A stretch of 64,000 bases of DNA, taken from contig JALHRR010000013.1 of assembly GCA_022841345.1 (NCBI GenBank), positions 1 to 64,000 of the forward strand. Reading direction: 5' to 3'. The DNA is from Saprospiraceae bacterium (GTDB lineage: Bacteria; Bacteroidota; Bacteroidia; Chitinophagales; Saprospiraceae). The number at the start of each line of letters is the position of its first letter. Position 1 is the first letter of the stretch. Below, in pieces: positions 18,515 through 19,377 of the stretch. The notes beneath the pieces were generated by a model. It was not told the origin of the DNA. It made no database searches and was given only the letters and a program-made list of their open reading frames with translations. A program made the position numbers and the translations under genes.

Positions 18515-18564
18515 TTTGCGCAAGTAAATACTTGCGCATATATTTGCAAGCATATACTTGCGCA
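18515..18564 (+). promoter_or_regulatory. ArsR promoter with overlapping palindromic operator
   Basis: TTTG at 18515-18518, a 20-base spacer and TATATTTG at 18539-18546 make a full-consensus promoter. The spacer is almost wholly filled by the perfect inverted repeat TGCGCAAGTA-AA-TACTTGCGCA (18517-18538). A third half-site, TACTTGCGCA, follows at 18555-18564, just before the ATG at 18567. A repressor bound here would block RNA polymerase, so autorepression by the ArsR protein encoded next is likely. The sequence is seen; binding is inference. Confidence 0.75.
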
Positions 18565-18566
18565 TT

Positions 18567-18893
18567 ATGACACAAACACGAGACATTTTTCAGGCTATAG
18601 CAGATCCGACACGCAGGCAAATTATAGGAATACTGGCACATAAAACACTCAATGTAAATGCTATTGCCAGTGAGTTTGATATAACCAGGCAGGCAGTTTC
18701 ACTGCACGTTCAATACCTTCATGATTGCGGTCTTATTGAAATTAAACAACAAGGCAGGGAAAGATACTGTGAGGCAAAACTCGCAAAATTAAAGGAGGTT
18801 ACAGATTGGGTGGATCAATACCGCAATTATTGGGATAATAAATTTGACACATTAGAAACATACCTGGATAAAATTCAAAAAAAGAAAAAGTAG
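18567..18893 (+). CDS. ArsR-family winged-helix repressor
   Basis: 108 residues from the ATG at 18567; a TTG three codons earlier is unlikely since it lies within the operator half-site. The protein is one winged helix: FQAIADPTRRQIIGIL (start of the family's domain), NAIASEFDITRQAVSLHVQYL (recognition helix) and GLIEIKQQGRERYCEA (wing). The metal-binding box of ArsR/SmtB (ELCVCDL) is absent, so it is the non-metal subtype usually paired with an SRPBCC/AHSA1 protein, as here (gene starts four bases downstream). It probably represses this pair through the operator at 18517-18564. Confidence 0.9.
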   Translation: MTQTRDIFQAIADPTRRQIIGILAHKTLNVNAIASEFDITRQAVSLHVQYLHDCGLIEIKQQGRERYCEAKLAKLKEVTDWVDQYRNYWDNKFDTLETYLDKIQKKKK

Positions 18894-18897
18894 AAAC

Positions 18898-19377
18898 ATG
18901 GAACAGTACAACACATTCAAACATGAGGACAACATCATTATTCATACGAGATTTCTGGATGCTCCCAGAGAACTTGTTTGGGAAGTATGGACCAATCCCG
19001 AACACATCAAAGAATGGTGGGGACCTGACGGATTCACACTCACGACTAAATCAATGATAGTAGAACCTGGTCAAGTCTGGGAATTTGTCATGCATGGTAT
19101 GGGTCAGGATTGGGATAACAAAATAGAGTATGTTGAAGTAATCAAACCTTCTCTCCTATCCTACAAACATTCCGGAGCCAGAAGCGAAGAATATAATTTT
19201 ACAGTTACAATCACTTTCGAGGTGCTTGAGGGAGGAAAAACATTATTGACGATGAAGTCAATATTCAAGTCAAAGGCAATTATTGACGAATTAAACAGAA
19301 AAGTAAATGCTATTGAAGGTGGCAAGCAGACTTTGAACAGGCTTGTGGGATATGTGGGTACATTAGTTAAAGAATAA
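18898..19377 (+). CDS. SRPBCC (AHSA1/START-like) family protein
   Basis: 159 residues. It begins HTRFLDAPRELVWEVWTNPE, continues HIKEWWGPDGFTLTT and shows TVTITFEVLEGGKTLLTMK, the pattern of the AHSA1/activator-of-Hsp90 homologue-1 group. These fold into a helix-grip with a hydrophobic pocket that binds a lipid-like or aromatic ligand; their partners are mostly unknown. It follows the ArsR gene by four bases and is certainly co-transcribed with it. The pocket protein may supply the signal for the repressor or be the controlled product. Confidence 0.9.
   Translation: MEQYNTFKHEDNIIIHTRFLDAPRELVWEVWTNPEHIKEWWGPDGFTLTTKSMIVEPGQVWEFVMHGMGQDWDNKIEYVEVIKPSLLSYKHSGARSEEYNFTVTITFEVLEGGKTLLTMKSIFKSKAIIDELNRKVNAIEGGKQTLNRLVGYVGTLVKE

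Follow-up and report, generated by a model that had tools for sequence, protein, structure and literature searches.

Putative tandem palindromic operators in the promoter of an ArsR-SRPBCC gene pair from Saprospiraceae and a proposed residue-base code for their recognition

The window analysed here, a stretch of 64,000 nt from a Saprospiraceae bacterium, carries on its forward strand a gene for an ArsR-type repressor of 108 amino acids (18567-18893, with the ATG at 18567) and, 4 nt behind it, a gene for an SRPBCC/AHSA1 protein of 159 amino acids (18898-19377). Two promoter boxes precede arsR on the same strand, TTTG at -33 (18515-18518) and TATATTTG at -7 (18539-18546), and they are 20 bp apart. 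The -7 box follows the flavobacterial consensus TAnnTTTG, which is described at -12 to -5 in Flavobacterium psychrophilum (PMC9723704); transcription is therefore predicted to start at 18551 on the forward strand. Within this promoter lies the first putative operator, O1 (18517-18538), a perfect 22-bp palindrome, TGCGCAAGTA-AA-TACTTGCGCA, with the half-site core GCAAGT and the dyad after position 18527. The original prediction had called this inverted repeat exact, as it is, and had placed it between the two boxes: O1 does fill the spacer in front of the -7 box, but its left half shares two bases with the -33 TTTG. Another TACTTGCGCA had been noticed before the start codon (18555-18564). It is present, although not as a lone half-site, being the right half of a second putative operator, O2 (18543-18564), an imperfect palindrome TTTGCAAGCA-TA-TACTTGCGCA with the dyad after 18553, beside the predicted transcription start. 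O2 repeats the entire operator 26 bp downstream of O1 with three mismatches, and the two form a 20-nt direct repeat of 90% identity. The TTTG of the -7 box also belongs to the left half of O2, a site that covers the predicted transcription start.

By itself the half-site is unremarkable, with three occurrences in the window at one mismatch against 2.3 expected. At the same tolerance the half-site pattern GCAAGTNNNNACTTGC was found at ten places in the genome versus five for the reversed control, and the O1/O2 pair accounts for two of the ten. The 22-bp operator pattern with up to three mismatches was matched only at the places of O1 and O2 in the 5.87-Mb assembly, where the reversed pattern gave zero matches at the same threshold. 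Elsewhere in the window, the frame at 21683-22999 matches NCBIfam NF049943, the selenoprotein subtype of type III sulfide quinone reductase, with 638.7 bits (profile positions 1-405 of 406); the reading frame runs uninterrupted to its stop, and this copy is thus probably without selenocysteine.

The repressor passes the cut-offs of the ArsR domain families PF01022 (30.4 bits, cut-off 22) and PF12840 (31.8 bits, cut-off 27) as well as that of NCBIfam NF033788 (69.7 bits, cut-off 55). Its match to the SdpR autorepressors (NF033789) stays at 57 bits, under the cut-off of 100, and its partner belongs to PF08327 rather than to SdpI. The structural model (pLDDT 89) has 3f6o, 3f6v and 2oqg as its best folds and assigns residues 30-34 to alpha3 and residues 41-53 to the predicted recognition helix, alpha4. 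The metal box of ArsR/SmtB sensors is a cysteine motif in alpha3, of the ELCVCDL type. The only cysteines of the window protein are C54 and C68, and residues 30-34 contain none, which bears out the prediction of an ArsR lacking the classical metal box. Metal-binding motifs are also described as missing from the ArsR proteins of ArsR-COG3832 pairs in the relevant passages of Makarova et al. (2009; PMC2701414). C54 (18726-18728) directly follows the recognition helix; it is conserved in 190 of 191 homologues and is a candidate sensing or structural residue. The idea of a general two-cysteine site was rejected, as the GREIYY subgroups have Tyr in the stretch where C68 is located.

The neighbouring protein is an SRPBCC protein, as had been predicted, with 86.7 bits to PF08327 (cut-off 22.1). 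Its model (pLDDT 92.5) resembles 1xuv best (TM-score 0.87 by query length), and the predicted fold has the ligand-binding PYR/PYL receptors among its neighbours; the fold match yields no ligand. The window pair, a non-metal ArsR directly followed by an AHSA1/SRPBCC gene, is of the ArsR-SRPBCC (COG3832) type, an already known kind of gene pair of which 280 occurrences are counted in the passages of Makarova et al. (2009; PMC2701414) concerned with it.

Conservation of the tandem site was followed through the genome itself and 60 relatives, 398 genomes of the family and 395 of the class, together with 21 loci from genome contigs. The homologue sample (loci up to L237) is a part of the score-sorted matches listed and leans towards close relatives of the window protein; once tblastn matches below 75 bits and identical proteins had been dropped, it comprised 220 distinct Bacteroidota proteins among the matches listed. 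In 191 of these 220 the upstream region holds a tandem site scoring above the best of 660 shuffled upstream regions, the matrix behind this count having been trained on the same 220-protein set. A matrix-free, base-blind score exceeded the 99% shuffle level in 164 of 219 homologues among the matches listed, and a base-blind tandem-palindrome score above 13 was reached in 162 of 216 homologue upstream regions versus none of 216 segments inside the downstream gene. The operators are spaced by 26 bp in 158 of the 191 tandem sites. Both promoter boxes were found in 172 of the 191, with a gap of 20 bp in 154 of the 172; operator spacings of 25 and 24 come with box gaps of 19 and 18, respectively, so operators and boxes mostly shift together. 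Part of the conservation, that of the TTG and TTTG letters, is promoter conservation, since half-sites overlap the boxes (the TTG letters of the -33 box are 92-96% kept in the 191 homologous promoters). The original prediction had named the presence of the palindrome in close homologues as a check, and both operators occur in all ten of the closest among the matches listed (L033-L041 and L169, 83-86% identical).

The 29 misses include 12 loci with more than 600 nt upstream of the repressor gene, and nine of the 12 hold a cognate tandem pair (L016, L060, L068, L069, L070, L080, L175, L180 and L190) by a search that had no control and left one pattern base open for four of the nine. L063 has one site, and L057 and L062 have none. 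In eight of the nine (all but L080) the pair lies 420-690 nt upstream of arsR, which is therefore probably a later gene of the operon in those loci, and the distant operators suggest operons with another first gene.

The letters of the half-sites vary among the 191 tandem sites (GCAAGT, GTAACC, GCAACC, GAAACC, GTAAGT, GCAGTC, GTAGTC and others), and this variation follows the start of the recognition helix. Between identity-matched pairs, the protein column that ranked first of 108 was residue 42 for base -7 (68 differences vs. 6.6 expected, z 25), residue 43 for base -5 (27 vs. 1.6, z 19) and residue 46 for base -4 (44 vs. 4.6, z 19). Lesser columns were residue 31 for -5 (second, z 14), 30 for -7 (z 8) and 46 and 53 for -3 (z 10 and 8). 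In the left half of O2, Q42 goes with C (111, and T once) and P42 with T (63, against C in 4 of 67) at -7; A43 goes with A in 159 of 159 and T43 with G in 25 of 26 at -5; and at -4 both L46 (31/31) and Q46 (6/6) go with G, while K46 goes with C (123), T (20) or G (1). The right half-sites, which lie off the promoter boxes, have the same residue-base pairing, except that A is tolerated at -7; in the right half of O1, for example, P42 is accompanied by T in 45 cases and by A in 22.

The homologues are related by descent, and identity-matched contrasts and the tree reduce this kinship effect but do not remove it. On a midpoint-rooted FastTree phylogeny built without the helix columns, with changes reconstructed by parsimony and a null that places them by branch length, 9 of the 12 substitutions at residue 42 fall on a branch where base -7 changes too (null mean 0.7); the same goes for 10 of 13 residue substitutions in the pair 46/-4 (null 0.6) and for both in the pair 43/-5 (null 0.02). 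The rules were written down in a three-residue form, namely C for Q42 and T for P42 at -7, A for A43 and G for T43 at -5, and C or T for K/R46 and G for L/Q46 at -4. This code makes predictions solely for the residues listed, other residues falling outside it. In the window the codons of ArsR residues 41-46 (R Q A V S L) occupy 18687-18704 of the forward strand; residues 41, 42 and 43 (18687-18695) and 46 (18702-18704) are those paired with bases -8, -7, -5 and -4. Some half-sites of proteins with Asn46 have A at -4 (GCAAAC/GTTTGC at L224), and elsewhere it is mixed with G, C and T; possibly this is a further code word.

The code was frozen before the phylum-wide loci (395 genomes) were read, and 40 further stretches were taken from the matches listed. 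After two of the 66 held-out loci had been dropped, there were 64 new distinct proteins among the matches listed, mostly from other classes of the phylum, although at least three loci (L238, L247 and L252) come from the same order or class. Base-blind tandem sites above the 99% shuffle level were present for 42 of the 64. At these sites the frozen code was correct in 39 of 40 cases at -7, 41 of 42 at -5 and 41 of 42 at -4, with C or T accepted for K/R46, and all three errors belong to one locus, L296, where the site had been chosen wrongly. A constant guess of the most frequent letter would score 30, 40 and 34 of 42, respectively, and the -5 rule is therefore tested by few minority cases (two with G). 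When the cognate pattern was compared with eight patterns on the 62 held-out proteins whose residues are in the code, it was strictly best in 58, tied in two and beaten in two.

Residue 41 is Arg in all 233 operator-bearing Bacteroidota proteins among the matches listed. It varies in loci from plasmid records, 20 of which were read initially and ten more after the rule for residue 41 had been frozen: R occurs with G, Q with A and L with T at -8. This 41/-8 rule comes from few loci; it was first spotted by eye and then tested on four later loci, none of which has Leu41. Blind picking of single palindromes gave 22/24, 17/20, 18/20 and 24/26 correct letters at -8, -7, -5 and -4 in the first 20 plasmid loci, and noisy figures in the later ten (4/6, 4/6, 2/6 and 6/8). 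It picked many wrong sites and was dropped for a ranking of the cognate pattern among 24. In 16 of the 30 plasmid loci at least one of the four residues lies outside the code; these were left out, and 14 were ranked, one of them (Spirosoma) from Bacteroidota and 13 from outside. The cognate pattern was strictly best in 11 of the 14, and none of 20,000 label permutations reached the cognate sum of 132 (null mean 107, maximum 126). Four of the 11 are from the later ten loci and have 10 of 10 letters each; random patterns reach at most 38 there against the cognate 40. Taken alone, these four give a weak result, as 1,628 of 20,000 label permutations attain the cognate sum, with only three labels involved. 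There are three exceptions: at L309 and L317 a second pattern scores as high as the cognate one, and L320 is a failure. In L309, P42 is accompanied by A at -7. The fits include four alphaproteobacterial loci that resemble one another (L308, L316, L327 and L329).

Several plasmid loci deserve separate mention. On the alphaproteobacterial plasmids of L316, L327 and L329 the genes for ArsR and its partner are followed by a gene annotated as the Clp protease proteolytic subunit, and the partner at L329 is annotated as hypothetical. At L330, an SdpR locus of Lachnospira with the helix SKPALTK, the sequence TTAACC-GTAA-GGTTAA was seen upstream by eye and would fit the code if Lys41 stood for T at -8. 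L310, on a plasmid of Halocatena marina, has a haloarchaeal ArsR-SRPBCC pair with a palindromic TTAACC-type site, which alone is not above shuffles (59/300).

The explanation that we favour, and consider very probable, is an autoregulated two-gene ArsR-SRPBCC operon in which ArsR dimers occupy two tandem palindromes and the start of alpha4 sets the operator letters. One dimer would sit on each palindrome. A dimer on O1 would cover the spacer plus the edge of the -33 box, and one on O2 would cover the transcription start together with the 3' end of the -7 box; bound ArsR would then exclude RNA polymerase and keep both arsR and the SRPBCC gene off, until a signal releases the repressor and allows expression. 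A spacing of 26 bp separates the two dyads by some two and a half helical turns and puts them on opposite faces of the DNA, an arrangement that argues for independent binding. At the start of alpha4, residue 41 would read base -8 (R for G, Q for A, L for T), 42 would read -7 (Q for C, P for T), 43 would read -5 (A for A, T for G) and 46 would read -4 (L or Q for G, K or R for C or T). Plausible contacts would be those of Arg with G, of Gln with A, of Pro or Leu with the thymine methyl group and of Lys with the G opposite C. That the palindromes are operators of the adjacent ArsR embedded in its promoter, as originally predicted, is strongly supported by their conservation and by covariation with the recognition helix, both read from sequence.

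The role of the SRPBCC protein can be approached through its genomic company. The next gene is SRPBCC-like in 202 of the 233 operator-bearing loci among the matches listed; 15 loci have no ORF there and 16 have another one. By eye, about 12 of these 16 look like real non-SRPBCC genes (VOC/PhnB-like, DoxX-like or SnoaL-like), and those at L010, L075, L157 and L265 like wrong-frame ORFs or a missed SRPBCC gene. Relatives of the window SRPBCC protein with 63-80% identity stand at eleven other loci behind Q42/A43/L46 repressors with GCAAGT sites, and at L052, L089 and L091 an SRPBCC orthologue stands behind a 52-58% identical ArsR (T43, K or R46) with GCAGTC sites. The operators follow the repressor, not the SRPBCC protein. 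The occurrence of SRPBCC orthologues behind two types of ArsR, along with the other kinds of next gene, makes the SRPBCC protein look like the regulated output rather than the signal. The original prediction had looked to a ligand-bound SRPBCC protein for the signal. Worked out as a mechanism, with the operator as described, the SRPBCC protein would be the sensor, and its liganded form would bind ArsR and release it. The frequent pairing and the PYR/PYL receptors among the fold neighbours are in keeping with such a sensor, but the pairing of orthologous SRPBCC proteins with repressors of a different code class and the dozen or so of 233 loci with another kind of next gene speak against it, and we regard it as unlikely; the proposed ligand-bound signal thus found no support here.

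Still less probable is that the ArsR-SRPBCC pair forms a toxin-antitoxin module and that the operator serves its autoregulation. ArsR-COG3832 is listed as a toxin-antitoxin-like pair, with expansions noted, in Makarova et al. (2009; PMC2701414), and the pair MSMEG_6762-6760 has been predicted to be one (PMC9416677); yet the passages of the former on this pair lean towards antibiotic resistance, and in those of the latter the predicted toxin, MSMEG_6760, is without effect on growth while overexpression of the ArsR had one. We give least credence to the palindromes being sites of another regulator, or promoter or RNA features, that are associated with ArsR by operon co-inheritance, for although the overlap with the boxes makes their conservation partly the promoter's, the variable bases follow three helix residues more closely than any other column, with changes on shared tree branches, and do so also in the box-free right half-sites and in the plasmid loci of other phyla.

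The four paralogues of this genome differ in their code words: QAL/GCAAGT (window), PAK/GTAACC, QAK/GCAACC and QTK/GCAGTC. Within genomes, paralogue pairs have the same code in 0 of 13, 3 of 51, 1 of 29 and 3 of 4 cases at 30-45, 45-55, 55-65 and 65-80% identity; the corresponding fractions between genomes, whose pairs include orthologues, are 0.03, 0.09, 0.30 and 0.64 (binomial 4e-4 for the third bin), and some of the paralogues were sampled. Insulation of paralogues by distinct code words is only suggestive from these sequence comparisons. It is likely, in our estimate, that one four-residue code (41, 42, 43 and 46) is common to the non-metal, SRPBCC-paired ArsR proteins of Bacteroidota, Alphaproteobacteria, Actinomycetota and probably further phyla, with the operator writable from the protein, paralogues in different code words and repressor-operator cassettes swapped as a unit before the same SRPBCC gene.

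Among known systems, Rv2034-Rv2035 resembles the window in having an ArsR gene before a gene of the SRPBCC superfamily (polyketide_cyc2), and the Rv2034 palindrome GTAAGT-CTAA-ACTTAC shares its register with the window sites, a 6-bp half-site and a 4-bp centre, as read from the sequence of the latter. The helix of Rv2034, SRPAVSQH, and its footprint fit all four rules of the code. The footprint is reported as CCGTAAGT-CTAA-ACTTACGG, and Rv2034 is described there as an autorepressor that is not released by the metals tested (PMC3338718). Unlike the window, Rv2034 has one palindrome in its promoter, as reported, and not a tandem pair on -33 and -7 boxes; its half-site letters differ, and it also acts on the dosR and phoP promoters. 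The NolR-DNA complex (4omy/4on0) shares its fold with the modelled window ArsR (E 2.7e-5 for 4omy). NolR Gln56, at the start of alpha4, is described as making base contacts in the crystal (PMC8960804) and appears to line up with window residue 41, as judged from ranges of equal length, whereas the NolR motif, (A/T)TTAG-N9-A(T/A), and its function as a global nodulation regulator differ. For IclR, a correlation between residues and bases is described throughout a bacterial family, with its maximum in the recognition helix (PMC8222616), and recognition by LacI has been studied as well (PMC4052901); both regulator families differ from ArsR. For Brucella ArsR6 a footprint is published, without the sequence in the text part concerned (PMC8509827), and the passages of Makarova et al. 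(2009; PMC2701414) on ArsR-COG3832 pairs are, unlike the present analysis, without operators, promoter architecture or specificity rules. Neither the four-residue code nor the tandem promoter-embedded operator of Bacteroidota was found in the literature searched, which left subscription papers mostly outside.

ArsR proteins are widespread as repressors in bacteria and much used in building biosensors, and many of them are without a known target. As the code predicted operators in genomes outside its derivation, it would allow the targets of so far uncharacterised repressors in this branch to be read from the protein. The code also suggests mutually insulated sets of repressors and operators for synthetic biology, and the ArsR-operator pairs may offer a clean natural system for following the joint change of a repressor and its operator.
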